Part shown: positions 29,788 through 52,472 of the stretch, piece by piece | Position numbering within the stretch: the first letter of the stretch is position 1 | Layout: every line of letters begins with the position of its first letter | DNA from: Bradyrhizobium sp. Ghvi | GTDB lineage: Bacteria; Pseudomonadota; Alphaproteobacteria; Rhizobiales; Xanthobacteraceae | Direction of reading: 5' to 3' | Assembly (NCBI RefSeq): GCF_900115265.1 | Contig: NZ_FOVU01000005.1 | Span: 62,001 to 126,000 of the forward strand | DNA length: 64,000 bases | The notes under the pieces: generated by a model | Told to the model about the DNA's origin: nothing | Seen by the model: the letters and a program-made list of their open reading frames with translations, nothing else | The model's database searches: none | Translations under genes and position numbers: made by a program

Positions 29788-30293
29788 TGTTTATCTCCGG
29801 GTATGCTCGAGGCCGGAATGTCGTTCCGGAGGCCACAACCCGTTAGAACGGCATCCGATGCGAACATTGCGCTCAACACGCTGTGCGATCTGGCTCACAC
29901 ACCGCATGGCCACGTGGCGCTTTGATTCGCGAGAGCAGCCTTTGCGCAACGTGGCGGTCCATCGACCCGAAGAAGGGAATTGAAGTTTAGGGATTGTGCT
30001 TTCTCGATCATTGGACTGTTGAGCACCGCTGCACAATGGGGCCGTATCGCCAGGTTTGACCTAGATTCGCGTCGCAAATCGCGAGATTTATCCGCCGCCC
30101 CGGAAATCACGCGATGTCCAGCTCCAAGTCGACATGATCTGGCAATCGAGGCTCAGTGAAATTTGCTTCAAGCAAGCTAGTACATGAGCCGCGAGCGATT
30201 GACGGTCTCGGGTCGCGCGCATTAATGTATGCATTAAGGGACGCAAAGATCCTGTGACGCATTTGGGCGCAGCCCGTTCTTGGGAGGGATCAC
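29788..30293 (+). other. Divergent intergenic region
   Basis: About 500 bases between the outward-facing uronate-dehydrogenase-like gene and the ABC importer. The only element I can support is the promoter with its palindromic box at 30199-30237. No gene is seen. Confidence 0.5.
30199..30237 (+). promoter_or_regulatory. Promoter with GntR-type palindromic box, site 1
   Basis: TTGACG (30199-30204) fits a -35 element, with TTAATG 17 bases later as a possible -10. The box ATTAATGTATGCATTAA at 30221-30237 covers that -10, so a bound protein would block transcription of the ABC importer operon. Its first 16 bases occur in reverse complement at 45822-45837. Confidence 0.7.
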
Positions 30294-31421
30294 ATGTCTA
30301 GCCTGATTAAAAACCTTAGCGCTGCGATAGTTGCTTCTGTCGCAATCATGGGCTTGGCCATAGGCCCGTCGATGGCGGCGGATGTTGCTGCGGCATTAAA
30401 GGATATCGAGGAGCATCCGGCATCCGGTCCGCACGGGGAAAAGCCCGTTCTCGCCAGCGACCTGGAGCTAAGCCCGGAGGAGATCGCAAAGATCAAGTCG
30501 ATGAACGCGACTGCGGCTATCGTCATGCACTACACCGCCTCCGATTGGGCGAAGGCGCAGATGGCGGGCCAAAAGGCTGCTCTCGATATGCTCGGAATCA
30601 AGATCATCGCTGTCACGGACGCGGGGTACAAAGCCGAGCAACAGGTCTCCGACATTGAGACGGTCATGGCCCGCAAACCGAACGTGATGATTAGCGTTCC
30701 TGCTGAGCAAAACGGCACGGCCGCCGCGTACAAGCGTGCGGCGGCTTCCGGTATAAAGATCGTGTTTCTCGATCAGACTGGCGCCGGAATGTCGCCCGGG
30801 ACGGATTATGTGAGCCTCGTGTCTTCCGACAATAGAGGTATGGGCAAGGCTGCGGCGCTACTTATGGCGCAGGCCCTGAACGGAAAAGGCAATATTGGAT
30901 TGATTCCACACGCTTCCGACCTGTTTGCGACCGTCGAGCGCGTCATGGGATTCAAGGAGGCGATCAAAGCCTACCCTGACATCAAGATCGTGGCCGAACA
31001 GGGCGTCGGTGGCCCTGACTTTTCCGGTGAGTCTGAGCGTATCGCCTCTGGGATGCTGACCGCCCATCCTGAACTGAACGGGATTTGGGCTGTCTGGGAT
31101 GTGCCGACCGAAGGCGTGCTCGCTGCGGCGCGTAGCAGCGGACGCGGGCCGAAGGATCTCGTGATCACGACCTGCGACCTTGGTGTAAACATCGCTATCG
31201 ATATGGCGAAGAATGGTTACGTGAAGGGGACAGGATCGCAGCGGCCGTACGGCGCTGGCTATGCGGAAGGCATTTTGGCGGGCTATGCCCTGATCGGCAA
31301 AGCGGCGCCGCCCTATGTCGTCCTTCCCGCACTGGCGGTGACCAAGCAGAACTTGATTGCCGGCTGGCCAATGTCCAATGGGACGCCGCCGCCTCAAGTG
31401 GTGACGGACGCGTTGAAGTAG
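30294..31421 (+). CDS. ABC transporter, sugar-type periplasmic binding protein
   Basis: 375 aa. GGGAGGG lies before the ATG. A signal peptide (MSSLIKNLSAAIVAS, then AIGPSMAADV) is followed by a type-1 periplasmic fold: AAIVMHYTASDWAKAQMAG, MARKPNVMISVP, IKIVFLDQTGAGMSPG, and VERVMGFKEAIKAYPD in lobe two. It has an N-terminal mature extension before the first strand, as in a subgroup of Peripla_BP_4 proteins. It is the receptor for the ATPase and permease that follow; this system is controlled by box site 1. Ligand unknown; the following dehydrogenase suggests a sugar or uronate. Confidence 0.9.
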   Translation: MSSLIKNLSAAIVASVAIMGLAIGPSMAADVAAALKDIEEHPASGPHGEKPVLASDLELSPEEIAKIKSMNATAAIVMHYTASDWAKAQMAGQKAALDMLGIKIIAVTDAGYKAEQQVSDIETVMARKPNVMISVPAEQNGTAAAYKRAAASGIKIVFLDQTGAGMSPGTDYVSLVSSDNRGMGKAAALLMAQALNGKGNIGLIPHASDLFATVERVMGFKEAIKAYPDIKIVAEQGVGGPDFSGESERIASGMLTAHPELNGIWAVWDVPTEGVLAAARSSGRGPKDLVITTCDLGVNIAIDMAKNGYVKGTGSQRPYGAGYAEGILAGYALIGKAAPPYVVLPALAVTKQNLIAGWPMSNGTPPPQVVTDALK

Positions 31422-31466
31422 GACTAGTAGGCCCGGGAGTTTGTCCCCGCACGCGAGCTATGGGTC

Positions 31467-33044
31467 ATGAGCGAATCCAGCAACGCGGTCGAGATGACCG
31501 GCATCAAGAAGTCGTTCGGAGGGCTCCAGGTCCTTCGCGGCGTCGACTTCGCGGTCAAGCAAGGAACGGTCCACGCGCTGATGGGTGAGAATGGCGCCGG
31601 AAAGTCGACGCTGCTCAAAATACTTCAGGGAATTCTGACGCCGACCGAAGGCTCGATAACCGTCTTCGGTCGGCAGATGAATAGCTTTAGTGCCGCTACA
31701 TCCCGCGCCTCGGGTATCGGGATGATATTTCAGGAGCTCAGCCTGATCCCAAGTCTGACCGTCGCCCAGAACATCTTTCTTTCTCGAGAGCCGAGAAAAT
31801 TTGGGCTTCTCGTGGACGATCGTACGGCGCGGGAGCGATCGAGAGTGATCATGTCCGAACTCGGCATGGATGTCGATCCGGCGACACCTGTTCAGAAGCT
31901 CAGCACTGGCCAGATGCAAATGGTCGAGATCGCGAAAGCGATCTCGCAAGACGCTCGCATCCTTATTTTGGATGAGCCGACATCCGCGTTGACCGGCGTT
32001 GAGGTCGAGCGTCTCTTTTCTCTCCTTAAACGCCTGTCCGCGGACGGGGCCGCGATCGTCTACGTGTCGCATCGGATGGATGAGATATTCGAGATCGCCG
32101 AGGAAGTAACCATCCTCAGGGATGGTCGGAACGTCGCGACCGCCCCAGTGCGCCAGTTCGAAATCCAGGACGTCGTCGAGCATATGATCGGCAAGCGGGT
32201 TGGAAGTTTCAGCTGGCGGCCGCGTTCGGTTGACCGCACGCGAAGCCCGGCTCTCGAGGTCCGATCGGTATCCGGGCCGAATAAGCCGATAAACGCTTCT
32301 TTCGAAGTTTATTCCGGTGAAGTGCTCGGCATTGCAGGGCTGTTGGGTTCCGGCCGCAGCGAACTGGCTCGGGTCATGTTTGGTATTGATGCAATGACCT
32401 CGGGCGAAATTCGAGTGAAAGGCCAAGCTGTCAGAATTCGCAGTCCACGTGAAGCGATGGAAGCGGGAATCGCCCTCATACCTGAAAGCAGGGCTCGCGA
32501 AGGCCTGATCGCAGCGCACAGCATACGTACAAATCTCAGTCTACCTCGACTAGGCGACCTCGCGCGAGGCCTGTTCCTTGACGGCACCAAGGAGACCGCT
32601 TCTGCGACTGGCTTGATTCAACGACTGCGTATTAAAGCAACCTCCAGCTCGGTGCCGGTGCGAACACTCTCAGGCGGCAACCAGCAGAAGGTGGTGCTCG
32701 GCAAATGGTTGGCCATGAATCCCGAGATACTCATCCTGGACGAGCCCACGGCGGGCATCGACATCGGGAGCAAAACGGAAATCGTCGATCTCATCCGCGA
32801 ACTTGCGGATGAGGGACGGGCCATCATCATCATTTCTTCCGAGCTCGCCGAACTTCTGGCGGTTAGCGATCGAGTGCTCATCATGAGCGACGGACGCATT
32901 GCCCGCGAGGTGTCCAGGGACGAGATTTCCGTGGCGGCCGGCGAGCCGACCGGAAGTGCAGACGAAGGGGTGCAGATCGCCAAGGCGGAGCACAACCTTC
33001 AAGTCCTAATCCAGGAGGTGCGGCTCAATGCTCCGACGTACTGA
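31467..33044 (+). CDS. Sugar ABC transporter ATP-binding protein (two ABC domains)
   Basis: 525 aa. The first domain has GENGAGKSTLLK (Walker A), IFQELS, KLSTGQMQMVEIA as signature and LILDEPTSALT (Walker B). The second has LLGSGRSELARVM, LSGGNQQKVVLG and LILDEPTAGIDIGSK. This is the duplicated RbsA/MglA type. Its last 17 bases overlap the start of the permease gene, indicating coupled translation. It is a distant paralogue of 18145-19656. Confidence 0.92.
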   Translation: MSESSNAVEMTGIKKSFGGLQVLRGVDFAVKQGTVHALMGENGAGKSTLLKILQGILTPTEGSITVFGRQMNSFSAATSRASGIGMIFQELSLIPSLTVAQNIFLSREPRKFGLLVDDRTARERSRVIMSELGMDVDPATPVQKLSTGQMQMVEIAKAISQDARILILDEPTSALTGVEVERLFSLLKRLSADGAAIVYVSHRMDEIFEIAEEVTILRDGRNVATAPVRQFEIQDVVEHMIGKRVGSFSWRPRSVDRTRSPALEVRSVSGPNKPINASFEVYSGEVLGIAGLLGSGRSELARVMFGIDAMTSGEIRVKGQAVRIRSPREAMEAGIALIPESRAREGLIAAHSIRTNLSLPRLGDLARGLFLDGTKETASATGLIQRLRIKATSSSVPVRTLSGGNQQKVVLGKWLAMNPEILILDEPTAGIDIGSKTEIVDLIRELADEGRAIIIISSELAELLAVSDRVLIMSDGRIAREVSRDEISVAAGEPTGSADEGVQIAKAEHNLQVLIQEVRLNAPTY

Positions 33045-34032
33045 TGGAACTGGAACTGCAGCGACGACGCATCGAGGTCCGTTGGCCATGGTTAGAGGCG
33101 CTTCCATTGTCTCGGACTGGCGACAATACGTCGTCTATATTGGGTTCGCGCTGATTTTCGTGATATTCGCGATCACGCTAAGTGATCGCGGCTTCCTGTC
33201 AGCCAATAATCTGCTCAACATCGCACGACAAACCGCGATCATCGCCATCATGGCGATGGCCATGACCTTCGTGTTGTGCGCCGGTGAGATCGATTTGTCG
33301 GTTGGAGCCATTGCAGGCTTGGCTTCCGTGACCTCAGGCCTCGCTCTCAGCCGTTACGGGCTTGTACCTGCGATTGCGGCCGGACTTTGTACCGGTCTCC
33401 TTGTGGGAGCCGTGAATGGAAGCTTGACCGCCTGGATCGGCATTCCCTCCTTTCTGGTCACGTTAGGTATGATGGGCTTTGCCCGTGGGCTTGGCATGTG
33501 GATGAGCGGAACCTCTCCCGTGCCGGTGATCGATGACACCTTCATCGCCGTTTTCGGATCGGGAAATATCGGCCCGGTCCCGATCCTTGTATTGTGGGTC
33601 GTGATCCTCGGCGCGCTGGCTCATACGGCCCTGCGAAAGACCCCCTTCGGACGAAAGATCTTGGCCACTGGTGGTGGTGAGACAGCAGCGCGCTACAGCG
33701 GCATCAAGACAAGAACCGTCAAGTTTCAGGCGCTTCTAATGACCGCCACGGCGGCTTCCGTCGCAGGAATGCTTTACGCGGGACGCCTGCACTCGGGGCG
33801 CTTCCAGCTGGGAGAGGGCGATGAACTGTCGGTTATCGCCGCCGTCGTTCTTGGCGGTACCAGCCTGTTCGGCGGAGCCGGAACCGTCATCGGATCAATC
33901 GTGGGCGCGCTGCTGATCGGCGTTATCAACAACGGCCTCATTCTGCTTGGGCTCGACTTTAGTCAGCAGCTTATGGCGCGAGGCGTTCTCATAGTTCTGG
34001 CGGTGGCCTTGGGCCGCAGCCAGCGCGCCTGA
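33028..34032 (+). CDS. Sugar ABC transporter permease
   Basis: 334 aa integral membrane subunit. CAGGAGG precedes the ATG, which lies inside the ATPase gene. Family pattern: AMTFVLCAGEIDLSVGAIAG near residue 85 and AVVLGGTSLFGGAGTVIGSIVGALLIG near the C-terminus. A polar 30-residue N-terminus precedes the first helix; an ATG at 33088 would shorten it but has no better ribosome-binding site. It works with the preceding receptor and ATPase. Confidence 0.91.
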   Translation: MLRRTDGTGTAATTHRGPLAMVRGASIVSDWRQYVVYIGFALIFVIFAITLSDRGFLSANNLLNIARQTAIIAIMAMAMTFVLCAGEIDLSVGAIAGLASVTSGLALSRYGLVPAIAAGLCTGLLVGAVNGSLTAWIGIPSFLVTLGMMGFARGLGMWMSGTSPVPVIDDTFIAVFGSGNIGPVPILVLWVVILGALAHTALRKTPFGRKILATGGGETAARYSGIKTRTVKFQALLMTATAASVAGMLYAGRLHSGRFQLGEGDELSVIAAVVLGGTSLFGGAGTVIGSIVGALLIGVINNGLILLGLDFSQQLMARGVLIVLAVALGRSQRA

Positions 34033-34064
34033 CCGAGCAGAACTCAAAAAAGAGGGACTATCGC

Positions 34065-34928
34065 ATGACTTTGGTCATCGTCACTGGTGGAAGCGGCAAG
34101 CTCGGCCGAGCTTGCGTCAAGGATCTCTTGGATCACGGCTACAACGTGGTCAACGCGGATGTCACACCTCCTGCGGTGGACCTTTGTCCTTTCGTGCAGG
34201 TCAATCTCACGGATCTCGATCGCACCATAGAGCTGCTTTCCGGCATGGAATGGTATCACAAGCGAGGGGTGGACGCAGTTGTTCACCTCGCTGCCGTTCC
34301 AATGCCCGGAGTTGTGGCTATCAGCGAGGTATTCGGTATCAATACGGCCAGTACCTATAATGTCTTTGAGGCGGCGCGCCGCCTTGGCATACGCAATGTG
34401 GTCTGGGCTTCAAGCGAGACCTTGCTCGGTCTGCCATACAAGGATCCGCCGCCATATCTTCCAGTCGACGAAGATTATCCGGCAAGGCCCGAAACGGCTT
34501 ATTCGCTGTCCAAAGCGGTCGGCGAAGAAATTGCGCGTCAGTATTGCCGGTGGGATCCCCTGCTGAAGATTGCGTGCCTGCGGTTTTCGAACGTGATGGA
34601 TCCGGCCGAATACGGTCAATTTCCGTCCTTCGATCCGGAAGATCGAAAGTTCAATCTGTTCGGTTACATCGATGCACGCGATGGGGCTCAGGCGGTTCGG
34701 CTATCGCTGGAGACAGATATCAAGGGAGCAGAAGTCTTCGTGATTGCCAATGCCGACACGGTATCGCCGACACCCAGTGTGGAGCTTGCACAAAAATATT
34801 TTCCTGGCGTACCATTCAAGAGGAAAATCAGCGGAAATGAGACGCTGCTCTCCATAGACAAGGCTCGTCGCGTGCTCGGTTATTCGCCGAAGCATAGTTG
34901 GCGGCCGGCTCAAAAAAATAAAAGTTAG
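34065..34928 (+). CDS. NAD-dependent epimerase/dehydratase, uronate-dehydrogenase-like
   Basis: 287 aa extended SDR. TGGSGKLGRACVKDL near residue 7, AVVHLAAVPMPGV, the catalytic YSLSKAVGEEIARQY and IACLRFSNVMDPAEY. It follows the ABC permease with AGAGGG before the ATG and is probably in the same operon, where it would oxidise or epimerise the imported sugar. The paralogue at 28903-29787 lies on the other side of the same intergenic region, so two relatives flank ABC importer control region 1. Confidence 0.87.
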   Translation: MTLVIVTGGSGKLGRACVKDLLDHGYNVVNADVTPPAVDLCPFVQVNLTDLDRTIELLSGMEWYHKRGVDAVVHLAAVPMPGVVAISEVFGINTASTYNVFEAARRLGIRNVVWASSETLLGLPYKDPPPYLPVDEDYPARPETAYSLSKAVGEEIARQYCRWDPLLKIACLRFSNVMDPAEYGQFPSFDPEDRKFNLFGYIDARDGAQAVRLSLETDIKGAEVFVIANADTVSPTPSVELAQKYFPGVPFKRKISGNETLLSIDKARRVLGYSPKHSWRPAQKNKS

Positions 34929-35082
34929 ACAAAGAACTTCTCGTTCAAAAAGTCGGGGCGCTGCTTTTGGATGAAGTGGGGTCACCTATCCACCCAACCA
35001 TTTCGTTTGTAGCCTTGTGCTGGCACGCCGTAGCCTTCCGACGTCCAGCCTAAACTAACAAGCCGCGTTCTGGGAGGAGCAA

Positions 35083-36081
35083 ATGGAGTCAAGAAAGACT
35101 CGTTCGCAAATGAGGCGCCGGGATCTCGTCAAGGGAGCTGCCTTGGTGGGCGGTGCGGCGTTGACCGAGGTGGTTGCTACGCGCAGCGAAGCCAAGGAGC
35201 CGAAGTCCGATAAGCAGGTTCCGTCGTATTATCGGTTTGCGTTGGGGGAAGCACAGGTCACTGTCGTATCGGACGGACCGCTGCCCCTTGGAGACCCGAG
35301 CGAAAGCTTCCTGGGTGTGCCGAAGGAGGAAGTCGTGCGGATGCTCGACAAGAGCTTCCTTCCGACAAAGGAAGTCGTGCTCGAGCAGAATGCACCGGTT
35401 GTCAACTTTGGAAACAAGTTGGTGCTGTTTGACACCGGAATGGGATCACTCAAGCAGTTCGGGCCCACCACCGGGCGCCTGAAGAGCAGCCTCGCCGCTG
35501 CCGGAATTGCTCTTGAGGAAGTCGACGCGGTCGTCTGTTCGCACGCGCACTGGGATCACATCGGTGGTATCTGGGGGGACGATAACAAGCCGACCTTCCC
35601 GAACGCACAGATCTACATCAGCCAGACCGACTACGACTTTTGGACTGACAAGAGCAAGCTCGGCGGTGATCTCGATGGTCTGGTCAAGGCAGCGATCCAT
35701 AACCTGCCGCCGGTGCGCGATCGCATCGTTTTCTTCAAGGACGGCGAGCAGCTTCTACCGGGTGTTCATGCGATTGCATCGCCCGGTCACACACTCGGTC
35801 ATCACTGCTTCATGATTGAGTCGGCGGGGAAGTCGTTTTGCTATGTCGGGGATTTGACGCACCATCCCGTGCTTCTTTTCGAAAAACCTCGAATGGAGTT
35901 TCTGTTCGACACGGATTCCAAGCTGTCGGTGAAATCACGTGTGAGAGTGCTGGATATGTTGGCCGCGAACAGGACGCCGCTGATGTCATATCACTTCCCT
36001 TGGCCCGGCCTTGGCCACGTAGGGAAGGATGGTGACGGCTTCCGCTATTATCCTGAGCCAATGCACATGTCGTTTCTTTAG
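35083..36081 (+). CDS. Metallo-beta-lactamase-fold hydrolase, probably exported
   Basis: 332 aa. The N-terminus (MRRRDLVKGAALVGGAALTE) is a twin-arginine-type signal, suggesting export of a folded metalloenzyme. The metal site is complete: SHAHWDHIGG (H-x-H-x-D-H) near residue 155, GHTLGHH and GDLTHHP. A final LMSYHFPWPG supplies the last His. The family includes AHL lactonases and other lactonases or esterases. GGAGGAG precedes the ATG. A lactonase acting on a sugar lactone in the periplasm would fit the neighbourhood, but the substrate is unknown. A strong terminator follows. Confidence 0.87.
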   Translation: MESRKTRSQMRRRDLVKGAALVGGAALTEVVATRSEAKEPKSDKQVPSYYRFALGEAQVTVVSDGPLPLGDPSESFLGVPKEEVVRMLDKSFLPTKEVVLEQNAPVVNFGNKLVLFDTGMGSLKQFGPTTGRLKSSLAAAGIALEEVDAVVCSHAHWDHIGGIWGDDNKPTFPNAQIYISQTDYDFWTDKSKLGGDLDGLVKAAIHNLPPVRDRIVFFKDGEQLLPGVHAIASPGHTLGHHCFMIESAGKSFCYVGDLTHHPVLLFEKPRMEFLFDTDSKLSVKSRVRVLDMLAANRTPLMSYHFPWPGLGHVGKDGDGFRYYPEPMHMSFL

Positions 36082-36220
36082 CTTGCGGGGTAGGTCAAGT
36101 CGGGCCCTGCCAGGCATTGACCGGACCTGTCAGCGGAGTTCAGCCGCCGATCTAATGGCGGCCTGACAAGTTGGTCGGCGACACCGACCAAACAAGCGCG
36201 CAAGCGCTCCTCCCGAGACT

Positions 36221-36250
36221 GGCCCGGCCCTAGAGGTCGGGCCCTTTTTT
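36221..36250 (+). terminator. Rho-independent terminator after the MBL-fold gene
   Basis: GGCCCGGCC pairs with GGTCGGGCC (nine pairs, one G-T) around a 5-base loop and is followed by CTTTTTT. It ends the operon upstream and separates it from the glycerate kinase gene, whose ATG is 16 bases after the T-run. Confidence 0.85.
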
Positions 36251-36265
36251 AGAACGAGTATTGAA

Positions 36266-37546
36266 ATGACCGATCGACGCCTTCTCCTTCGCGCCGTTCT
36301 AGATGCCGCGATCGCCGCCGCCCATCCCAACGTCATACTGGTGCCTCATCTTCCGGCAGCTCCGAGGGGCCGTTTGATCTGTCTCGCAGCCGGCAAAGGG
36401 GCCGCCGCCATGGCCGCAGCGGCCGAGCGGCACTACCTGGATGTGTTCAAGTTTGACCCGGATCGACTGATCGGCATCGCGACAACCCGGCACGGTCATC
36501 GCGTGCCGACGAGATGCGTCGAGGTCATTGAGGCCGGTCATCCGGTGCCGGACGAGCCAGGACGGGAGAGTACCGAAAGGACGCTGCGACTCGCCCAGAG
36601 TGCCCGAGAGGAAGACTTGGTCTTGGTGTTGCTGTCCGGTGGCGGTTCCGCCAACTGGATCGCACCTGTTGACGGCATTACCTTCGTCCAGAAGCAGCAA
36701 CTGACGCGTTCGTTATTGCGCTCCGGCGCACGGATCGACGAGATCAACATCGTCCGCAAACACCTGTCGCGTATCAAAGGTGGACGCCTCGCGCGTGCCA
36801 GCATGCGGGCTGAGGTCGTGGCGCTTGCAATTTCCGACGTGCCATTCGACGATCCGTCCTCAATTGCGTCCGGACCGACCGTACCGGATCAGACGACGCT
36901 CGCGGACGCGCGAGCGGTAATCGAGAAATACGACCTCCTGCCAGATGAGGCGATTCGTCACGCCCTCAGGCATCCGCAAAACGAGAGCTGTAAGCCTAAT
37001 GATCCGTGTTTTGCCAGGACGCGCCTGGAGCTAATCGCAAGGCCACGCGACGCGCTGGCTGCAGCGATTGCTGCCGCAGGAAAAGCTGGCTACGAGATCA
37101 TCGATCTCGGAGCTGATCTTGAAGGTGAGGCGCGTGATGTCGCGGCCAACCATGCGCGCCTGGCGCTGCAAGCTCGGTCGGAACGAAAGCGCGTCGCCAT
37201 AGTGTCGGGTGGGGAGCTAACGGTCACCGTTCGCGGCAATGGGCGTGGCGGACCCAATCAGGAGTATGCACTCGCGTTAGCCCTCGCGCTCAACGGCGAG
37301 AGTGGCATCGCAGCTCTTGCTGCAGATACCGATGGTGCAGATGGCGGCAGCGGGGTCGCGTCAGATCCTGCCGGCGCCATTATTGACGAGCGGACCCTTA
37401 GTCGGGCCAAATCGCGCGGCCTCGACGCTCGGTCGTATCTCGGCAACAATGACGCAAGCGCCTTCTTCGCAGAGACCGGCGATCTGCTGCAGACGGGTCC
37501 AACGTTGACGAATGTCAATGATCTGCGGGTCATCCTGGTTGAGTAG
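36266..37546 (+). CDS. Glycerate 2-kinase, MOFRL family (TtuD/GckA type)
   Basis: 426 aa. Converts D-glycerate to 2-phosphoglycerate with ATP; the family is often misnamed hydroxypyruvate reductase. The N-terminal DUF4147 domain has LICLAAGKGAAAMAAA near residue 37 and VLLSGGGSANW near residue 125, with LSRIKGGRLA. The C-terminal MOFRL domain has VSGGELTVTVRGNGRGGPNQE and AADTDGADG. Length is typical. It would take up glycerate made from glyoxylate or hydroxypyruvate, so it links the glycolate and tetronate ends of this region to glycolysis. Confidence 0.9.
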   Translation: MTDRRLLLRAVLDAAIAAAHPNVILVPHLPAAPRGRLICLAAGKGAAAMAAAAERHYLDVFKFDPDRLIGIATTRHGHRVPTRCVEVIEAGHPVPDEPGRESTERTLRLAQSAREEDLVLVLLSGGGSANWIAPVDGITFVQKQQLTRSLLRSGARIDEINIVRKHLSRIKGGRLARASMRAEVVALAISDVPFDDPSSIASGPTVPDQTTLADARAVIEKYDLLPDEAIRHALRHPQNESCKPNDPCFARTRLELIARPRDALAAAIAAAGKAGYEIIDLGADLEGEARDVAANHARLALQARSERKRVAIVSGGELTVTVRGNGRGGPNQEYALALALALNGESGIAALAADTDGADGGSGVASDPAGAIIDERTLSRAKSRGLDARSYLGNNDASAFFAETGDLLQTGPTLTNVNDLRVILVE

Positions 37547-37612
37547 CCGCAGCCGCCGCCTGGCCCATTCGGAGCGGAACGGAATGCGATCGCCCGGGCG
37601 TTCGACGTGCCT

Positions 37613-38506: not shown

Positions 38507-38740
38507 GGTTCACATGAATATAGATCATCTAACTTGGACTTTAATTCCTTTGTTGGTGCCGGGCAAGGTTACTAGGCTCAAGCGATAGAGAATGCGGACA
38601 GACAACCGCAAGATCCGGAGGTACGTCCAGTGTGCTCTCATCGCGAGGGCCCTCCGATCCTTCTTGCTTGGTTAGCGCTCCTTCGCGAAGGCGAGGGACG
38701 CCGCGTGCTCGAAAGCAATAAGAAGGGACAACATCGCGAT

Positions 38741-39667: not shown

Positions 39668-39668
39668 G

Positions 39669-40526: not shown

Positions 40527-40593
40527 GCGCAGGCGTTCGCCCGCGCAGAAATCGACCAAAGAAAATACCAGTAACATTGTGGAGGAGGAGACG

Positions 40594-41607: not shown

Positions 41608-41614
41608 GGGCACG

Positions 41615-43474: not shown

Positions 43475-43545
43475 CGCCTCAGCCTCGAACGATTTGATCG
43501 GACGGCGAAGAAACAATCACAGACGTGAACACACAAGGGTTAAAC

Positions 43546-45573: not shown

Positions 45574-45591
45574 CGGCCGATCCGGCCGTCA
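45571..45591 (+). terminator. Hairpin at the end of the transketolase gene
   Basis: TGACGGCC and GGCCGTCA pair around a 5-base loop, starting at the TGA stop of the transketolase gene. There is no T-run after it, so it may be a weak terminator or an mRNA-protecting 3' hairpin. Confidence 0.55.
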
Positions 45592-45899
45592 GTCGAGCGC
45601 CACGCCGACGGCCGGGGAACGAGGCCATCGCACGATCGCGCTCGGCGACGTTTGCCTGGCCGATCCTCCCTTTGTCCCGGGTTTGGTCTCCCTCTGCTGC
45701 ATGCAGGCTGTCTGTCTATCTACTGACCGGTAGCCCGGAGGTGCCTGTAGGGCGCGTTCGTCCGGCGGGTCAGGATCGGTCATGTCGCGTGGCCGGTTCC
45801 AGCGGCGAGGCTTGACAGAAATAATGCATACATTAATAAATGCACAGAGCCGTTTGTTTTGCGGATTTGGGATCCTGGCCGCAGCTGAGGGAGCCGGTG
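45574..45899 (+). other. Intergenic region upstream of the HAD gene
   Basis: About 325 bases, with the transketolase hairpin at its start and the promoter plus palindromic box (45812-45840) near its end. I see no gene in the remainder. Confidence 0.45.
45812..45840 (+). promoter_or_regulatory. Promoter with GntR-type palindromic box, site 2
   Basis: TTGACA at 45812-45817 and TAATAA at 45834-45839 (16-base spacing) form a good sigma-70-type promoter. The box TAATGCATACATTAAT at 45822-45837 lies between them and is the exact reverse complement of 16 bases at site 1. It would control the HAD and aldehyde dehydrogenase genes. Confidence 0.75.
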
Positions 45900-46619
45900 A
45901 TGAAGAGTTCGATCCAGAGAGTGAAGGCGATCGTGTTCGATACGTTCGGCACGGTGGTGGACTGGCGTGGAAGCATCATTCGCGACCTCTCGGCGTGGGG
46001 GGAAAGCGAAGGGATCAAGGCGGATTGGGCCGCCTTGGCCGACAGCTGGCGGGGGCGGTACGAACCCGAGAAGGATCGGGTTAGGATCGGGGAAATCGCC
46101 TGGACCAATCTCGACGAGCTGCACGCTCATGCCCTCGATCAGGTGCTGGCTGAACTTGACCTCGAAGCCCTGTCAGTGGATCAGCGCCGGCACATTAACC
46201 GCGTATGGCACAGGCTGGAAGGCTGGCCCGATGCGGTCGAGGGGCTAACCCGCATCAAGCGCCGATACGTCATCGGCCCATTGTCGAACGGGAATGTTGC
46301 GTTGCTCGTCAATATGGCGAAGCATGCCGGACTACCGTGGGACAACGTCTTCTCTTGCGAGCTGTTTCGGCACTACAAGCCACATCCCGAGACCTATCTC
46401 GGCGTGTGCAGGCTCATGTATCTCGATCCAGCGGAGGTCATGATGTGCGCTGCGCATAATGGCGATCTCGCTGCTGCCCGCGCGGCTGGCCTGAAAACGG
46501 CCTTCATCCCGCGTCCGAGCGAGCATGGTCCGGGCCAGAAGATCGACCTCGAGCCGACGCAGGATTGGGACGTCGTGGCCAACGACATTATCGAACTTGC
46601 CGGGCACGTCGGCGCCTAG
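45900..46619 (+). CDS. HAD-superfamily haloacid dehalogenase, type II
   Basis: 239 aa. The ATG (MKSSIQRVKAIVFD) gives a normal start. Motif I FDTFGTVVDWRGS near residue 12, motif II PLSNGNVALL, motif III HYKPHPETYLG, motif IV CAAHNGDLAAARAAG. It closely resembles the gene at 24497-25219. In family members the nucleophilic Asp displaces halide from (S)-2-haloacids; here it is under the palindromic box with an aldehyde dehydrogenase, so a sugar-derived substrate, perhaps a phosphate ester, is also possible. Confidence 0.88.
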   Translation: MKSSIQRVKAIVFDTFGTVVDWRGSIIRDLSAWGESEGIKADWAALADSWRGRYEPEKDRVRIGEIAWTNLDELHAHALDQVLAELDLEALSVDQRRHINRVWHRLEGWPDAVEGLTRIKRRYVIGPLSNGNVALLVNMAKHAGLPWDNVFSCELFRHYKPHPETYLGVCRLMYLDPAEVMMCAAHNGDLAAARAAGLKTAFIPRPSEHGPGQKIDLEPTQDWDVVANDIIELAGHVGA

Positions 46620-46664
46620 ATACACGCCAGTCTGCGGGCCCAGTTGAGAACAGGATATAGCGCA

Positions 46665-48146
46665 ATGCAATCCTACAAGATGTTCATCGGCGGTGAATGG
46701 GTCGAGGCGGTCGGCGGCGAACGCTTCGAGTCTCTCAATCCTTTCACGGGCAAGGCCTGGGCAACGATCCCGCGGGGAAAGCCTGCGGATGTCGACCGGG
46801 CCGTGGCGGCGGCCAAGGCGGCATTCAGAACGGGGCCCTGGCCAAAGCTGACGCCGACCGAGCGCGGACATCTGCTCAGACGCCTCGGCGATCTCATCGC
46901 CGAAAACGCCGAGCAACTCGCCCGAACCGAGGTGACGGACAACGGCAAGCTCATCAACGAGATGGCGTTCCAGCTGAAGTACATTCCGCAGTGGTATTAC
47001 TATTTCGGCGGCCTCGCGGATAAAGTCCAGGGCGCTGTCATCCCGATCGATAAACCGCAGACATTCAATTTCACACGGCAGGAGGCCCTCGGCGTATGCG
47101 TCGGCATCACCGCCTGGAATTCGCCGCTTCTGCTTCTCGCCTACAAGCTCGCTCCGGCGCTCGCCGCGGGAAACACCTTCGTCGCAAAGCCGTCTGAGTT
47201 CACGTCCGCCTCAACGCTGGAGTTCGCGAAGCTGGTGGACAAGGCCGGCTTTCCGCCGGGCGTTTTCAACGTGGTTACTGGGTTTGGAGGTGAGATCGGC
47301 GATGCCCTGATCTCGCATGCCGATGTTGCAAAAATTGCTTTCACCGGAAGCGAAGCCACCGGGCGCCGAATCGGCGAACTGGCGGCACGCAGCTTCAAGA
47401 AGGTGACGCTCGAACTCGGCGGCAAATCGCCTCACATCGTCTTCGACGATGCGGAAATCGACAACGCGGTCAAAGGCGTCATCTCGGGGATTTTCGCTGC
47501 GACCGGACAGACATGCATCGCCGGTTCACGTCTCCTCGTTCATCGGAGCATCCACGACCAGTTCGTGGAGCGCGTTGTTGCGTTTGCCGGACGGGCCAAG
47601 AAGGGCGATCCGCTCCTAGCCAGCACGCAGGTCGGCCCCGTCACGACGCCCCCTCAATATCGGAAGATTCTCGATTACATCGATGTCGCGAAGGGTGAGG
47701 GAGCCACCTGCGTGCTGGGTGGTGGGCCCGCGGCCGGGCCCGACGTTGGCGAAGGCGGCTACTTCGTCGAACCGACGATATTCACGGGGGTGCACAACCG
47801 GATGCGCATTGCCCAGGAAGAGGTCTTCGGTCCCGTTCTGGCATGCATTCCTTTCGAGGACGACGAGGAAGCCATCGCAATAGCGAACGACACGACGTTT
47901 GGCCTGGCGGCAGGGTTCTGGACGCAGGACATTCGAAGGATACTTCGGGTTTCGGAACGACTTCAGGCCGGTACGGTGTGGGTCAACACCTATCGCGTGA
48001 TCAGCTACCTCTCGCCTCTCGGAGGCTACAAGCATTCGGGCATCGGCCGGGAGAATGGACTGGATGCGATCCAGAACTATCTCCAGACCAAGAGCATCAT
48101 GATTGGGACCGCAGAAGACGTGGTGGATCCATTCGTGATGCGCTGA
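46665..48146 (+). CDS. NAD(P)-dependent aldehyde dehydrogenase
   Basis: 493 aa, the common length. NAD-binding and catalytic signature residues: TAWNSPLLLLAYKLAPALAAGN, KIAFTGSEATGRR, the general-base Glu in VTLELGGKSPH, and catalytic Cys in FAATGQTCIAG. C-terminal VWVNTYRVISYLSPLGGYKHSGIGRENG. It follows the HAD gene by 45 bases and would convert an aldehyde to an acid. The specific aldehyde cannot be told; plant-type aldehyde or glycolaldehyde/semialdehyde are candidates. Confidence 0.92.
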   Translation: MQSYKMFIGGEWVEAVGGERFESLNPFTGKAWATIPRGKPADVDRAVAAAKAAFRTGPWPKLTPTERGHLLRRLGDLIAENAEQLARTEVTDNGKLINEMAFQLKYIPQWYYYFGGLADKVQGAVIPIDKPQTFNFTRQEALGVCVGITAWNSPLLLLAYKLAPALAAGNTFVAKPSEFTSASTLEFAKLVDKAGFPPGVFNVVTGFGGEIGDALISHADVAKIAFTGSEATGRRIGELAARSFKKVTLELGGKSPHIVFDDAEIDNAVKGVISGIFAATGQTCIAGSRLLVHRSIHDQFVERVVAFAGRAKKGDPLLASTQVGPVTTPPQYRKILDYIDVAKGEGATCVLGGGPAAGPDVGEGGYFVEPTIFTGVHNRMRIAQEEVFGPVLACIPFEDDEEAIAIANDTTFGLAAGFWTQDIRRILRVSERLQAGTVWVNTYRVISYLSPLGGYKHSGIGRENGLDAIQNYLQTKSIMIGTAEDVVDPFVMR

Positions 48147-48161
48147 CAGGCGTTGCGCCTC

Positions 48162-49790
48162 TCACACGGCTTGATTGTTTGGCAGCTGTCGACCTTGGAT
48201 CATGTCGGCAGCCTTTTCTGCGATCATAAGCGTCGTGGCGTACGTGTTCGCAGACGGCATCGTCGGCATGATCGAGGCGTCAACGATCCGCAGGCGGTCA
48301 AGTCCGTGGACCCGAAGCTCGTTGTCCACGACAGCATCCGGATCGGATGCCGGTCCCATGCGCGCAGTTCCGATGAGATGGTAGCAGGTGGTCCCGTTTC
48401 GATAGCTATAGTCGAGCAGCTCGTCGTCGGTGGTCACGTCAGGGCCGGGCAGGGTCTCGTTCTGGAGATACTGCGCGAGTTCGGGCGTCGACAGGAGGCG
48501 GCGGATCAGGCGGAGGCCGCCAATCGTGGTACGTCGATCCTGCGGGTCGCTGAGATAGTTCGGCTGAACGACTGGGTCCTCGAAGACGTCCGTGGAGCGG
48601 GCGTGCACATATCCCGTGCTTTGCGGGCGATGCGGCCAAGCGCCGGCCGACACGCCGGGATAGTCGTCTAGCACATAGACGGCGCCTTGCTTGTAGGAGC
48701 CGGGCGTGAACACGCATTGGAGGTCCGGCGCATCGAGGCCTTCGAATGACTTCCAAAAGACATGGACTTGCGACGGGGACGTTGCCAGGATGTTGGGCAA
48801 GCCGACGGCCCAGCGGGCGATCTGTCCTCCAAGACGAAGCCCGCGCGACAGTTCGTTCAATGTGACGACGTCCGGCCTGGCTTTCATCACAATCCGCACC
48901 GCATAGTGGTCCCGAAAGTTCGCTCCTACTCCGTTCAGCTCGTGTCTCAAGGGTACACCCAAGGACGCAAGCGCAGGCGCCGGGCCGATGCCGGAAACCT
49001 GGAGCAGCCGTGCGGTATTGACGGTACCCGTCGCTAGGATGACTTCGCGTCTCGCGCGAACTTCGTTTGGCGTGGCGCCACGTCGACGCAGATACCGCAC
49101 CGCGACTGCGCGACGCTGGTCGAGCACAATTTCGCTCGCGCGAACGTTGGTGCGGAGTTCCAGGTTTGAACGCGACAGGGCAGGCTTCAGGAATGCGCGC
49201 GCGCTGCTGACTCTCCAGCCCCGGTCGATCGTGCGCTGGAAGTATCCCACTCCCGCCTGATGGCCATTGTTATAGTCCGGGTTTTGCGGAATTCCCGCGT
49301 TGATGCAACCGTGAATGAAGGCCTCGGAGACGGGGTGAAGCCAGTCCATTCGACTGACCGGAATTGCTTCGCCTTGCTCGGGCCCCTTCTCGATATCCAA
49401 CCGCCGCACCGAGCGACGAAAGTAGGGGAGGACGTCGTCCCAAGCCCACCCCCGGTTGCCCCGTTGGGCCCATCCATCGAAATCAGCCGGTTGTCCGCGG
49501 TTGTAGACCATTCCGTTGATGGACGAGCCGCCGCCTAACGTGCGGCCCTGCGTCGTTGCGATCGGTCGGCCGCCGGTTCGCTCGGTCGGATCGGTCTTGA
49601 ATTGCCAGGTGCAGGTCGGATCGAACAGCGTCTTGATGAAACCGGCGGGCAGGTGGATGAAGGGGTTGCGATCGGGCGGTCCCGCCTCGAGCAGGCAAAC
49701 CGTGGCGACGCCATCGGCCGTAAGCCGGTTCGCGAGGACGCATCCAGCGGCGCCGGCGCCAACGATCACGTAGTCGAATTCCTCGCTCAT
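48162..49790 (-). CDS. GMC-family FAD-dependent alcohol dehydrogenase (choline-dehydrogenase-like)
   Basis: 542 aa. The ATG (MSEEFDYVIVGAGAAG) was chosen as it starts directly before the Rossmann motif GAGAAGCVLANRL. GMC signature 1 lies in GRTLGGGSSINGMVYNRG, and signature 2 in GTVNTARLLQVSGIGP. The C-terminus has YHLIGTARMG with the active-site His, then VDNELRVHGLDRLRIVDASIMP. It is convergent with the aldehyde dehydrogenase gene, 15 bases apart, and divergent from an MFS gene across box site 3. An alcohol-to-aldehyde step feeding that aldehyde dehydrogenase is a reasonable guess. Confidence 0.91.
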   Translation of the reverse strand: MSEEFDYVIVGAGAAGCVLANRLTADGVATVCLLEAGPPDRNPFIHLPAGFIKTLFDPTCTWQFKTDPTERTGGRPIATTQGRTLGGGSSINGMVYNRGQPADFDGWAQRGNRGWAWDDVLPYFRRSVRRLDIEKGPEQGEAIPVSRMDWLHPVSEAFIHGCINAGIPQNPDYNNGHQAGVGYFQRTIDRGWRVSSARAFLKPALSRSNLELRTNVRASEIVLDQRRAVAVRYLRRRGATPNEVRARREVILATGTVNTARLLQVSGIGPAPALASLGVPLRHELNGVGANFRDHYAVRIVMKARPDVVTLNELSRGLRLGGQIARWAVGLPNILATSPSQVHVFWKSFEGLDAPDLQCVFTPGSYKQGAVYVLDDYPGVSAGAWPHRPQSTGYVHARSTDVFEDPVVQPNYLSDPQDRRTTIGGLRLIRRLLSTPELAQYLQNETLPGPDVTTDDELLDYSYRNGTTCYHLIGTARMGPASDPDAVVDNELRVHGLDRLRIVDASIMPTMPSANTYATTLMIAEKAADMIQGRQLPNNQAV

Positions 49791-49899
49791 CGATCCATTC
49801 CCCAGGCGTGTTTCGCGTTGTCGACCCATGGTTTCCCGCCCGGGACCAAAGATGATGCGAAAACGCCTTGATTTCCAGCCCTACATTTGTAACGATCGC

Positions 49900-49923
49900 A
49901 TTAATGAATGCATTAATGAATGC
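49900..49923 (+). promoter_or_regulatory. GntR-type palindromic box, site 3, with a tandem half-copy
   Basis: ATTAATGAATGCATTAA at 49900-49916 differs from site 1 by one base (T to A at the centre). It is followed directly by a second ATTAATGAATGC copy, so the region has one and a half boxes. It lies in the 156-base gap between the divergent GMC and MFS genes and could regulate both. Confidence 0.7.
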
Positions 49924-49946
49924 TGTAAAGCAAGGAGGAGGGGACC

Positions 49947-51284
49947 ATGGGTGAGGAAGCGGGGCGATCGAAAACCGGGAGCGATGATGCTATCTACCGG
50001 AAAGTCACGCTCTATCTGATGCCGCTGCTGATCACGTGTTACACGGTGTCGTATCTCGACCGGATCAACATCAGTTTTGCCAAGCCCCATATGATGGGCG
50101 ATCTCGGATTGAACGAAGCCGTCTACGGGCTCGGCGCGGGACTCTTCTTCCTCGGATATGCGGCATCGGAAGTCCCCAGCAATCTGCTGATGCATCGTTT
50201 CGGCCCGCGGCGATGGCTGAGCCGCATCCTGATGACCTGGGGCCTCATCTCGATGGGGATGATGCTGGTTTGGTCCGAATATTCCTTCTATATCTTCCGC
50301 ATCGCGCTGGGGATCGGAGAAGCCGGGCTATTTCCTGGTGTCATCTTCTACCTGATGCGATGGTATCCGACCGAGCGTCGCGCCACCGTCACGTCACTCT
50401 TCTACCTCGCTGCACCTCTTGCCGGCATCTTCGGCGCGCCGATTTCCGGTCTGATCATCGCCCACATGCACGGAACTGCGTCACTCGCCGGCTGGCAGTG
50501 GATGTTCTTGCTAGAGGGTCTCCCGGCCGTCCTGCTGGCATTCGTGGTCTGGTTCAAGCTGAGCGACACCATCGAGGGTGCCTCTTGGTTGTCTTCGTCG
50601 GAAAAGGTGCGCCTTCGCGCCAACATCGATGCGGAGAACGTCAGGAAGCCCGAGATGGGCATCATTGACGTCTTCAAGAACGTCGACGTGCTTCTTCTTG
50701 CTGCTATTCTCTTCGGGATCGTGCTCGCCCAATCGGGAATTTTCTTCTACCTCCCGTCCTTGATTAAGGGGGCAGGGGTTACGGACACCGTCCAGCTCGG
50801 CATCTATTCGGCGGTGCCTTACGCCGGAGCGGTGATCGTGATGCTCGCAGTTGGTCGCAACTCCGATCGGAAGCGCGAGCGCTTCCTGCACTTCGTCGGA
50901 AGTTGCCTGTTCGGCGTTGCCGGCTTCCTGATCAGCGTCTGGTTCAAGCACAACCTCGTTCTTGTCCTGATCGGGCTGAGCATGGCGCTGGGCGGAGTCA
51001 TGGCCGTGCTGCCGGTATTCTGGAGCCTGCCGACGGCCGCGCTCAAGGATGTTTCGGCCGCCGCCGGAATCGCCTTCATCAATTCGATCGGATTGACGGC
51101 CGGCTTCTTCGCGCCCTTCATCATCGGCTTTCTCACGCAATCGACCAACACGCTGGACCTGGGCATCTACTGTGTGGCCGGAATCTGGACGGCGTGCGTG
51201 GCCGTTTCGGTGGTCTACTTCACCCGGCAAAAGTCCCGCAGCGCGCCTGCGACAGTTGGGGCCTCTGCCGGTGCGGCTCGTTGA
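49947..51284 (+). CDS. MFS transporter, anion:cation symporter (ACS) type
   Basis: 445 aa, twelve-helix carrier. CAAGGAGGAGGGG stands before the ATG. Typical ACS segments: PLLITCYTVSYLDRINISFAK in helix 1, LGLNEAVYGLGAGLFFLGYAASEVPSN, RFGPRRWLSRILMTWG, and the EAGLFPGVIFYLMRWYP motif. The second half is intact. This family carries sugar acids such as galactonate, glucarate and tartrate, as well as aromatic acids. It lies under box site 3, so uptake of an acid from this regulon is likely. Confidence 0.92.
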   Translation: MGEEAGRSKTGSDDAIYRKVTLYLMPLLITCYTVSYLDRINISFAKPHMMGDLGLNEAVYGLGAGLFFLGYAASEVPSNLLMHRFGPRRWLSRILMTWGLISMGMMLVWSEYSFYIFRIALGIGEAGLFPGVIFYLMRWYPTERRATVTSLFYLAAPLAGIFGAPISGLIIAHMHGTASLAGWQWMFLLEGLPAVLLAFVVWFKLSDTIEGASWLSSSEKVRLRANIDAENVRKPEMGIIDVFKNVDVLLLAAILFGIVLAQSGIFFYLPSLIKGAGVTDTVQLGIYSAVPYAGAVIVMLAVGRNSDRKRERFLHFVGSCLFGVAGFLISVWFKHNLVLVLIGLSMALGGVMAVLPVFWSLPTAALKDVSAAAGIAFINSIGLTAGFFAPFIIGFLTQSTNTLDLGIYCVAGIWTACVAVSVVYFTRQKSRSAPATVGASAGAAR

Positions 51285-51302
51285 ATCGAGGGCAAACAAA
51301 CT

Positions 51303-51328
51303 GCAGCGCTATCCGCGGATAGCGCTGC
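51303..51328. terminator. 26-base perfect palindrome between convergent genes
   Basis: A 26-base sequence (GCAGCGCTATCC and its exact complement around the central CG) lies in the 73-base gap between the convergent MFS and GntR genes. It can fold into a strong hairpin on either transcript and probably acts as a bidirectional terminator, although neither side has a long T-run. Confidence 0.7.
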
Positions 51329-51357
51329 CAGGCACGAAGTGCGAACTGATCGGCCGC

Positions 51358-52101
51358 TCAGGGCAGCTTCGAGAGCAGGTCGGTGAGAAGCCTTCCCGCA
51401 CGTTCGCGGTGCTCTTGGTGCAGGCGCATGGCGGCGTCAGCGTCGCCCTTGGCAATTGCCCGCACCAGAGCGGCGTGCTCCCGGTTCGATTGCGTCGGTT
51501 TAGGACGAAGGCGGAGCGTCAGCAGGCGCGCACGATGCGCCTGCGACCAGAACTGATCGACTGTCTGAATGATGCGTCGGTTGCCGCAACTGTTGATCAG
51601 TGTCCGATGGAAGGACTCGTCCGCTTGGGCCCACGCCTCCAGGTCATCCCGATCCAATGCGTCGTCCATGTTGGCGACGGCCATATTGAGAGAGACCAAA
51701 GCCTCCTTGGCGATTCCACGCCTCGCGACGAGCCCGGCGGCGGTCGCTTCCAGGCTCGTGAGCACCTCGTAGATCTCGCGCATGTCGTCCGCCGACACCG
51801 GAAGGACGCGCATTCCGTGGCGCGCGCGGATTTCGACAATGCCTTCGGCGCGCAGCCTCACCATCGCCTCTCGTACAGGGGTTCGGCTCATGCCAAGACG
51901 TGCCGCCGCCTCAAGTTCAAGAACGAAGCTGCCGGGGGCGATAGCGCCGCTCAATATCAGCTCGCGCAGCCGGGCATAGGCGATATCAGCTTGATTGGGT
52001 TTGCCGCTCGGGGACGCAACGGGGGTGAGGCGCGTCCGCGTCGGCACCTTTCGGGGCACAGGCTTGAGGTCTGGCGACTTTTTTCGAGGCTTGGTTGTCA
52101 T
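51358..52101 (-). CDS. GntR-family transcriptional regulator, FCD subfamily
   Basis: 247 aa. ATG (MTTKPRKKSPDLK) chosen after GGGAGAGAAG. A basic tail of about 35 residues precedes the winged helix (DIAYARLRELILSGAIAPGS, then LAARLG-like AARLGMSRTPVREAMVRLRAEG). The C-terminal FCD domain has the metal/ligand residues in WAQADESFHRTLINSCGN and the late NREHAALVRAIAKGDAD segment. FCD regulators are mostly repressors relieved by small organic or sugar acids. It is divergent from the promoter at site 4 and is the best candidate to bind all four palindromic boxes. Confidence 0.91.
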   Translation of the reverse strand: MTTKPRKKSPDLKPVPRKVPTRTRLTPVASPSGKPNQADIAYARLRELILSGAIAPGSFVLELEAAARLGMSRTPVREAMVRLRAEGIVEIRARHGMRVLPVSADDMREIYEVLTSLEATAAGLVARRGIAKEALVSLNMAVANMDDALDRDDLEAWAQADESFHRTLINSCGNRRIIQTVDQFWSQAHRARLLTLRLRPKPTQSNREHAALVRAIAKGDADAAMRLHQEHRERAGRLLTDLLSKLP

Positions 52102-52472
52102 TGCGGTCAGTTCTTCTCTCCCTGGTCTTACCACTATCGCCGTGAGCAACCAATTCCATCGCGACCATCAGTCGGAAGGTTCGGTTGTGGAAAGATCCCA
52201 GCCAAATCCGTCACTTGTCGAAACCTAGCCCTGGCCCGGGTCGAAAGAGAAGGGGAGGCTCATCGCTTGCTCCAAAAACTCGTGGATGAGGGGGCGGTCC
52301 GCGCTGATCGCCCCTCGACTAGCCGGGAAAGGATCGTGCTTCAACCTTGCAGCTTTCGTTATATCGGACTAGTGTATAGTAATGCATACGTTATTGAACG
52401 CAAAGACGGCGGTCTTTGTGTACAATGGCGATGCGATCCGCAGCCAAAGCAGAACCGACCTGGAGATGCAGC
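52102..52472 (+). other. Intergenic region between the gntR and dehydrogenase genes
   Basis: About 370 bases of control region between divergent genes. It contains the site 4 promoter/box at 52375-52395. No gene is supported in it. Confidence 0.5.
52375..52395 (+). promoter_or_regulatory. Promoter -10 with GntR-type palindromic box, site 4
   Basis: TATAGT (52375-52380) is a good -10 element. TAATGCATACGTTATT at 52380-52395 follows it and differs from site 2 by two bases. The box would sit at the transcription start of the six-gene operon beginning at 52473, about 80 bases before the first start codon. Confidence 0.65.

Follow-up and report, generated by a model that had tools for sequence, protein, structure and literature searches.

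Which protein reads the near-identical palindromic boxes that recur at four places in a catabolic region of the Bradyrhizobium sp. Ghvi genome, and what do they control? The window, a stretch of 64,000 nucleotides (positions 62,001 to 126,000 of contig NZ_FOVU01000005.1; C20:62001-126000 of the 7.93-Mb genome in our numbering), carries these boxes in front of gene groups for the uptake and oxidation of sugar acids. It also carries gntR (51358-52101, minus strand), which encodes, by Pfam, a GntR-family FCD regulator, placed in the VanR group by an AlphaFold2 model and Foldseek. We consider it highly likely that the protein encoded at 51358-52101 binds the box, and in our preferred reading it represses a local regulon for sugar-acid uptake and catabolism until an organic acid releases it. 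The first-pass annotation of this DNA had proposed a probable GntR/FCD regulon with a palindromic operator, and that proposal, in which binding is predicted, gains support from the confinement of the box in the genome, the loci of orthologous regulators, co-occurrence across 195 genomes and a match to the core of the Atu1419 operator. The operator is a variant of the known FCD/VanR operator rather than a new type of box, and the system is one of ordinary local gene control.

Once put in register, the four boxes follow a 16-bp even palindrome, TTAATGNATNCATTAA, with sites at 30222, 45821, 49901 and 52379, all listed without a strand. Operator 1 (TTAATGTATGCATTAA, 30222-30237) has no mismatches and precedes an ABC importer operon, and operator 2 (ATAATGCATACATTAA, 45821-45836) has one mismatch and precedes a pair of HAD and ALDH genes. 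Operator 3 (49901-49928), between divergent GMC and MFS genes, comprises two overlapping boxes 12 bp apart, at 49901-49916 (no mismatches) and at 49913-49928 (two mismatches to the reader-derived pattern). Operator 4 (GTAATGCATACGTTAT, 52379-52394), with three mismatches the weaker site, precedes a six-gene group and lies about 280 bp from the gntR start. The sequences flanking the sites differ, and all boxes are intergenic relative to the genes assigned in this analysis. Much of what the first-pass annotation had said of the boxes therefore holds: its four sequences are present at the coordinates given and near-identical in register, sites 1 and 2 have 16 bases in common in opposite orientation, and every site lies in a control region between assigned genes, with none within a gene. 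Its claim that chance recurrence is very unlikely is likewise upheld. A search for TTAATGNATGCATTAA at up to three mismatches on both strands, with registers and strands counted apart, found 10 matches in the window, all at the four sites, against a mean of 0.34 and a largest value of 3 in 100 shuffles of the window.

The same annotation had proposed a genome-wide scan, and this confined the box to the cluster: among 7,925,674 bases, matches to the reader-derived pattern with at most one mismatch occur at sites 1-3 only, while unrelated matches comprise one with two mismatches (C20:478737) and a remainder with three. A weight matrix ranked the four sites first to fourth among the 16-mers of the window (+ strand) and the overlapping copy of operator 3 fifth, the five top scores being 31.8, 28.9, 28.8, 21.2 and 19.8 and the best unrelated score 8.75. 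Built from 20 sites of other genera that were picked via the window consensus, this matrix tests ranking, not independence.

A comparison of orthologous promoters, also proposed in the annotation, showed that the box recurs close to gntR orthologues of other alphaproteobacterial genera, much more often than permuted controls do. From 148 loci 80 were taken; the test set comprised the 54 loci (L024-L077) around orthologous gntR genes of 44-67% identity, with the Bradyrhizobium loci L020-L023 excluded and 22 loci of distant homologues (L078-L099) as controls. The 54 loci are not mutually independent, and many end at contig ends. The box was found at 26 of them with at most two mismatches and at 36 with at most three, whereas 59 permuted half-sites averaged 0.53 and 5.4 of these loci and reached 4 and 15 at most. 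One member, L030, is by coordinates the same place as genome G006 of the window's own genus; without it, the counts are 26/53 and 35/53. De-replication at 90, 70 and 60% gntR identity left the box, at up to two mismatches, in 20/45, 12/30 and 7/12 loci, and with one locus per cluster at 70% identity and L030 left out, permuted half-sites reach 0.15 loci on average and 2 at most, against 12/30 for the box. None of the 22 distant-homologue loci has the box at that stringency. When palindromic words were counted over 26 kb of upstream sequence without use of the motif, TTAA-N8-TTAA came out in largest excess (10/54 loci, against 0.6 for permutations); this word represents the arms of the box and not the whole box. 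This upstream-only count was a repeat, prompted by a count over whole flanks that was swamped by other words, taken for conserved codons.

Within Bradyrhizobium, gntR (E <= 1e-40) was present in 7 of 195 genomes, at 80% identity or more in six and at 60% in G006. Exact boxes coincided with the closer orthologue: all six genomes in which it reaches 80% identity have them, and the 189 others have none. Single one-mismatch boxes occurred in 8 of the 188 gntR-less genomes, much as often as a reversed control pattern (9/195). When the strict pattern TTAAYGNATNCRTTAA was run over the whole genomes of 33 chosen relatives, it matched 13 places in 12 genomes, 12 of the 13 at the gntR cluster; by coordinates, 11 places lie within the gntR locus, one lies 21 kb away on the same contig before an orthologous ABC operon and one lies outside the gntR locus. 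The reversed control of this pattern matched in 2/33 genomes. Among the 33 is the most diverged Bradyrhizobium with the system (L023, by coordinates the same as G116 of the genus test), in which gntR is 80% and the orthologue of the ABC binding protein 83% identical. There, the box closes the best-matching block of otherwise diverged DNA upstream of the ABC operon, and before HAD-ALDH the best local block hardly exceeds the box. The similar stretch is longer at sites 3 and 4, and the equivalent of site 4 matches the consensus more closely. Two nearer relatives, about 90% identical throughout the region before the ABC operon, add little.

The gntR product contains a GntR domain (PF00392, 2e-14, 53.4 bits against a cut-off of 27) and an FCD domain (PF07729, 3.6e-27, 95.7 bits against a cut-off of 24.3), and its nearest named relatives are Bradyrhizobium proteins at 98-99% identity. 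In the AlphaFold2 model (pLDDT 90.4), six C-terminal helices span residues 104-128, 132-150, 154-171, 175-198, 203-217 and 221-244. Six instead of seven C-terminal FCD helices define the VanR group (PMC7797058), and as modelled the protein is a VanR-group FCD regulator. By Foldseek, the best E-value goes to Atu1419 (6z74), at 29-31% identity. Residues E34, R45, T46 and R49 of Atu1419 align with E62, R73, T74 and R77 of the gntR product, each of which is invariant or at least 90% conserved in alignment A2, comprising 42 sequences (the window protein, 37 orthologues and four distant homologues). Conserved to the same degree are D161, H165, H209 and H231, which alignment and conservation mark as putative FCD metal ligands; in metal-binding FCD proteins, the ligands are three His and one Asp or Asn (PMC7797058).

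Atu1419 of Agrobacterium fabrum, a member of the VanR group (PDB 6Z74, 6ZA0, 6ZA3, 6ZA7, 6ZAB), binds ATGTATACAT in gel shifts and crystals, with DNA contacts that include Glu34, Arg45, Thr46 and Arg49, and binding is abolished when G3/C8 of its 10-bp operator are changed (PMC7797058). ATGTATACAT is the core of the window box. Given this operator and the conserved contact residues, the box core ATGNATNCAT is what a VanR-group protein could be expected to bind. The likeness extends to the six-helix FCD domain, a putative metal site of the same type and the conserved E34/R45/T46/R49 contacts, and to the role of Atu1419 as a local repressor of a catabolic island, acting from palindromes on the -10 element or between -10 and -35. 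The two systems differ in that Atu1419 governs hydroxycinnamate degradation genes rather than sugar-acid genes; this context and an identity of 29-31% mean that the gntR product is not its orthologue. Furthermore, Atu1419 is a tetramer able to loop between sites 190 bp apart, and its published palindrome is 10 bp long and lacks the TTA/TAA arms; a 12-bp overlapping operator is not described in the passages of that work that we compared.

FadR-subfamily operators have the consensus NyGTNxACNy, or TKGT...ACMA, and GntR operators often have additional half-sites, 7-12 nt away from their centre (Suvorova et al. 2015, PMC4494728). Like those operators in which 2 nt separate GT from AC, the window box is an AT-rich palindrome with the same G/C spacing; it is a G-N4-C palindrome of the GntR/FadR type, reading GTATAC in many relatives' sites and GTATGC or GAATGC in the window. 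It differs in having A at the first base of TKGT and, in the window sites, a free T after the G, and its ATG/CAT flank departs from TKGT/ACMA. The compared passages of that survey name no group that has TTAATGNATNCATTAA. AlkR of Pseudomonas aeruginosa (PDB 9ISW, PMC12042122), with a TM-score of 0.75 to our model, above that of Atu1419, is likewise a VanR-group repressor with a palindromic operator over the -10 element and extra weak sites, but its operator is ATTGTCAGACAAT, its effector an acyl-CoA and its targets alkane genes. A search of open-licence PMC full text with the exact box strings, which logos in figures escape, returned, among the matches listed, no title that deals with an FCD regulator or with the operator of one; a second search there, for the pathway and threonate or Bradyrhizobium GntR, returned none recognised as describing the window regulator, again among the matches listed. 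Regulator, box and target set are a fresh instance of a well-known kind of local control, in which the operator repeat and the pathway are of most specialist interest.

The four operators precede the probable start codons of their gene units by 18-110 bp. Seen by eye, TTGACA (45812-45817) stands 3 bp upstream of operator 2 and TTGACG (30199-30204) near operator 1, and operator 4 overlaps a TATAGT hexamer (52375-52380). The first-pass annotation went further, seeing recognisable promoter elements at three sites; a sigma-70 consensus scan recognised a promoter in none of the four box regions and so did not confirm this. In 33/54 loci of the relatives, a cluster gene has the box (at most three mismatches) at -60 to 300 bp from its called start. 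The genes so placed are gntR in 11 loci (-57 to 213 bp from its called start), an isopropylmalate-dehydrogenase-like (IPMDH-like) gene in 8, SMP-30 lactonase in 8, DctP in 7, TctC in 5, Gfo/Idh in 3 and a metallo-beta-lactamase-fold (MBL) gene in 1. These counts, like those given below for the genes that accompany gntR, rest on single-linkage clusters of mechanically called open reading frames, each named from one member, and leave uncounted one TctC cluster that contains antisense frames.

We propose that the gntR product would bind TTAATGNATNCATTAA as a dimer, with one winged helix per half-site and with R73, the counterpart of Arg45 in Atu1419, recognising the G in both ATG halves; the double box between the GMC and MFS genes may take two dimers. 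Box position and the example of Atu1419 make repression the most likely outcome, and because the operators lie 18-110 bp before starts, beside or over possible promoter hexamers, it would most likely work by blocking RNA polymerase. The FCD pocket would take up a metal-bound organic acid, an intermediate of the pathway, and this would release the protein, switching on uptake (ABC, MFS) and sugar-acid oxidation or cleavage (IPMDH-like enzyme, OtnC and others). We infer binding and repression, and with them the effector class, the substrate and autoregulation.

A number of observations weigh against this reading. The adjacency of gntR to a box proves little because the genome encodes 19 FCD proteins, that is, 18 besides the gntR product. 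The statement of the first-pass annotation that gntR is the only GntR gene in the window stands for FCD genes, gntR being the sole one of the 19 there, and other GntR subfamilies were not searched for. Site 4 is the weakest of the four although it is nearest to gntR. TM-scores to the model are higher for the VanR proteins 9isw, 7u5q and 3sxy (0.72-0.75) than for Atu1419 (0.56-0.66), and phmmer ranks TM0439, likewise ahead of Atu1419 by TM-score, first and Atu1419 third. Eighteen of the 54 orthologue loci lack the box at up to three mismatches (10 of these reach four mismatches, which is uninformative since permuted half-sites do so in 27/54 on average), three-mismatch matches occur in 6/22 distant-homologue loci, 21/33 relatives' genomes have no strict match, and G006, with its gntR of 60% identity, has no box at up to one mismatch. 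The cluster and gntR are also co-inherited, and co-occurrence alone cannot separate the gntR product from another co-inherited factor. Lastly, contig C17 encodes, beside madM, an FCD paralogue whose own operon is preceded by a related box, TTAATGTATGCGTAAT, with a matrix score of 22.3 that exceeds that of site 4; the box core is therefore common to FCD regulators, with room for cross-talk. The number of FCD proteins, this C17 box, the better fit of VanR proteins other than Atu1419 and the two LysR genes within the cluster would all suit another binder in or near the cluster, be it a LysR protein (37613-38506 or 59460-60347), the FCD protein encoded at C20:50432-51226 or another FCD paralogue. 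We regard such a binder as quite improbable: the box follows gntR across differing neighbourhoods (TRAP, TctC, SMP-30, Gfo/Idh) and stands -57 to 213 bp from its called start in 11 loci, relatives of the window LysR proteins (E <= 1e-15) occur in 4/54 loci, and the FCD gene at 50 kb of C20, 11 kb outside the window, has no comparable box in the surrounding 17 kb (best matrix score 8.2).

It is rather unlikely that the gntR product binds the boxes but activates, or represses some promoters and activates others. Some FCD proteins do activate, such as GlcC in E. coli (PMC11323563), and the sigma-70 scan recognised no promoter by which to place the box relative to the transcription start. Against activation stand the short distances to likely starts, the TTGACA- and TATAGT-like hexamers that the boxes adjoin or cover, the boxes close to where gntR begins in 11 loci of relatives, which would suit negative autoregulation, and Atu1419 itself, which represses from sites on -10 or between -10 and -35. 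That the boxes are chance or non-regulatory AT-rich repeats, such as a mobile repeat or the leftover of a duplication, is hardly credible. AT-rich palindromes can arise by chance, and the match at C20:478737 resembled a fifth target yet is unlinked to gntR, but the shuffles (mean 0.34 against 10 matches), the differing flanks and the retention of the box in diverged promoters and together with gntR all count against this reading. We thus retain repression by the gntR product as the preferred reading.

The match at C20:478737 (L125:2038-2053, two mismatches) was rejected as a target because it does not follow gntR in 16 Bradyrhizobium genomes. With gntR present, its mismatches number 2 in G000, 4 in G033, 3 in G116, 6 in G140, 5 in G046 and 6 in G157; in the ten genomes without gntR, they number 2 in G005 and 4-7 in the other nine. 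The match lies 45 bp before the gene for the periplasmic binding protein of a branched-chain-type ABC transporter, and beyond it are a dehydrogenase of the NAD_binding_2/11 type (LtnD-like on Pfam evidence alone), a TIM barrel resembling xylose isomerase that is presumably OtnI-like, and an OtnK over its cut-off. With this target the regulon would have gained a kinase, which is absent from the boxed units. At the C17 locus, the gene for the MadM malonate symporter is followed by that for the FCD paralogue (L122:3563-5630, G000:C17:27562-29629), with TTAATGTATGCGTAAT and further GTATGC/GCATAC boxes upstream, and this is likely a paralogous regulon with a related core. A gene for a SIR2-like and STALD protein, a possible defence-type gene, adjoins this malonate locus (L122:5945-7231).

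Each box in the window faces a gene group of the kind that had been annotated from the outset: an ABC importer operon, HAD-ALDH, divergent GMC and MFS genes and a six-gene group with OtnC and an IPMDH-like enzyme. Operon 1 (30294-37546, plus strand), its extent suggested by gene order, encodes a periplasmic sugar-binding protein, an ABC ATPase, a permease, an NAD-dependent epimerase/dehydrogenase, an MBL-fold enzyme and a glycerate 2-kinase-like protein. Operon 2 (45900-48146, plus strand) comprises a HAD protein of the type II haloacid dehalogenase family, with a start proposed from the sequence at ATG 45900, and a betaine-aldehyde-dehydrogenase-like ALDH. Operator 3 serves as the candidate control site of a GMC oxidoreductase gene (48162-49829, minus strand) and a divergent MFS transporter gene (49947-51284, plus strand), the latter with its best NCBIfam match, below cut-off, to a D-galactonate transporter subfamily. 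Operon 4 (52416-59252, plus strand), only putatively a single operon in view of the 350-bp gap after its first gene, encodes an isopropylmalate/tartrate-dehydrogenase-like enzyme, an ALDH, OtnC (3-oxo-tetronate 4-phosphate decarboxylase), an SDR, a 2-hydroxyacid dehydrogenase and a CBS-domain protein. OtnC scores above its NCBIfam equivalog cut-off (NF043034, 315.6 bits vs 250), whereas the IPMDH-like enzyme falls below those of LeuB (TIGR00169, 274.6/353.2) and tartrate dehydrogenase (TIGR02089, 261.7/470.4).

Other features lie among and around these groups. In the middle of the regulon, a block with LysR, LtnD-like, alpha/beta hydrolase, TRAP transporter and transketolase genes (37613-45573) is free of any box and is perhaps under LysR control. 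Just downstream of operator 4, a 15-nt inverted repeat with 87% complementarity and a TTGTGTACAA-like arm (52393-52426) is a possible second regulator site or hairpin. The window also carries further sugar-acid genes (77-2574, 8220-12253), namely genes of OiaX-like (RuBisCO-like) and OiaK-like kinase type, which score under the NCBIfam cut-offs, and glycolate oxidase genes resembling GlcDEF, of which GlcF exceeds its cut-off.

In the relatives, the genes that accompany gntR across the 54 loci are IPMDH-like (45 loci), Gfo/Idh/MocA oxidoreductase (32), SMP-30 lactonase (19), OtnC (13), OtnK (12), TRAP components (11) and MBL-fold enzyme (11), together with TctC/TctA transport proteins. Such a regulon would take up a sugar or sugar acid and oxidise it, ending at least partly at 3-oxo-tetronate phosphate. 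It resembles threonate/erythronate catabolism (OtnC, OtnK and LtnD families) in having OtnC in the target group, and OtnK with OtnC recurs in relatives' loci; it differs in that, in the window genome, the OtnK that exceeds its cut-off is about 370 kb distant, among genes with a weak box that is not linked to gntR. Brucella VdtR differs as well, being a DeoR-family regulator (PMC10580937). We also considered an apiose pathway: the Gfo/Idh/MocA gene of L033 matches PDB 5uhw (1.6e-44), which we take to be an apionate enzyme. Together with the OiaX- and OiaK-like genes near the beginning of the window, which fall below their cut-offs, this is too little to name the substrate.

The most constant companion of gntR, the IPMDH-like enzyme (52473-53585 in the window), retains the residues that we take to form the malate core of IPMDH, with R100 kept in 45/46 orthologues (L023-L077) and R110, R136, K196, D228, D252 and D256 in 46/46. 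A Phe occupies the position of Tyr139, presumably the catalytic residue, in 45/46 orthologues, and the signature G[WL]P..R...GTEI.PQ is present in the 12 IPMDH-like sequences examined. Because Phe replaces the catalytic Tyr, the reaction may differ from classical oxidative decarboxylation, and these sequence features suggest that the enzyme probably belongs to a distinct, unassigned clade.

The overlapping boxes of operator 3 raise the question of whether the operator is itself extendable. Across 28 non-redundant of 34 sites, with the best box taken per place and the window sites included (site 4 at three mismatches), a second, weaker copy of the box fits best at an offset of 12 bp, where the matching fraction of non-overlapping positions is 0.48, while offsets 6-45 average 0.25. 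This offset ranks first among offsets 1-45 (z = 4.0), a signal that AT-rich flanks may raise, and is followed by offsets 4 and 8, which share the sequence periodicity. A second copy at up to three mismatches is present in 6/28 sites (window site 3, L026, L027, L032, L065 and L074), and L034 and L052 have more degenerate box arrays. A 12-bp half-overlapping repeat was not found in the literature passages compared, on Atu1419 and on GntR/FadR operators. We speculate, as a tentative idea that is doubtful on present evidence, that the 12-bp unit TTAATGNATNCA can recur head to tail, each extra unit adding a half-overlapping palindrome, such that one, two or three boxes would give graded cooperative repression, and that this extendable operator governs an undescribed alphaproteobacterial sugar-acid pathway round an IPMDH-like enzyme with a catalytic Tyr-to-Phe change. 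If functional, the half-overlapping operator would account for graded control by a single protein.

For a sugar-acid catabolic group that recurs in Alphaproteobacteria, these results make a regulator, its operator and its target set testable. Prediction of function from enzyme families alone falls short there; the regulon points to which genes belong together, and the FCD pocket of the regulator offers a handle on the substrate.

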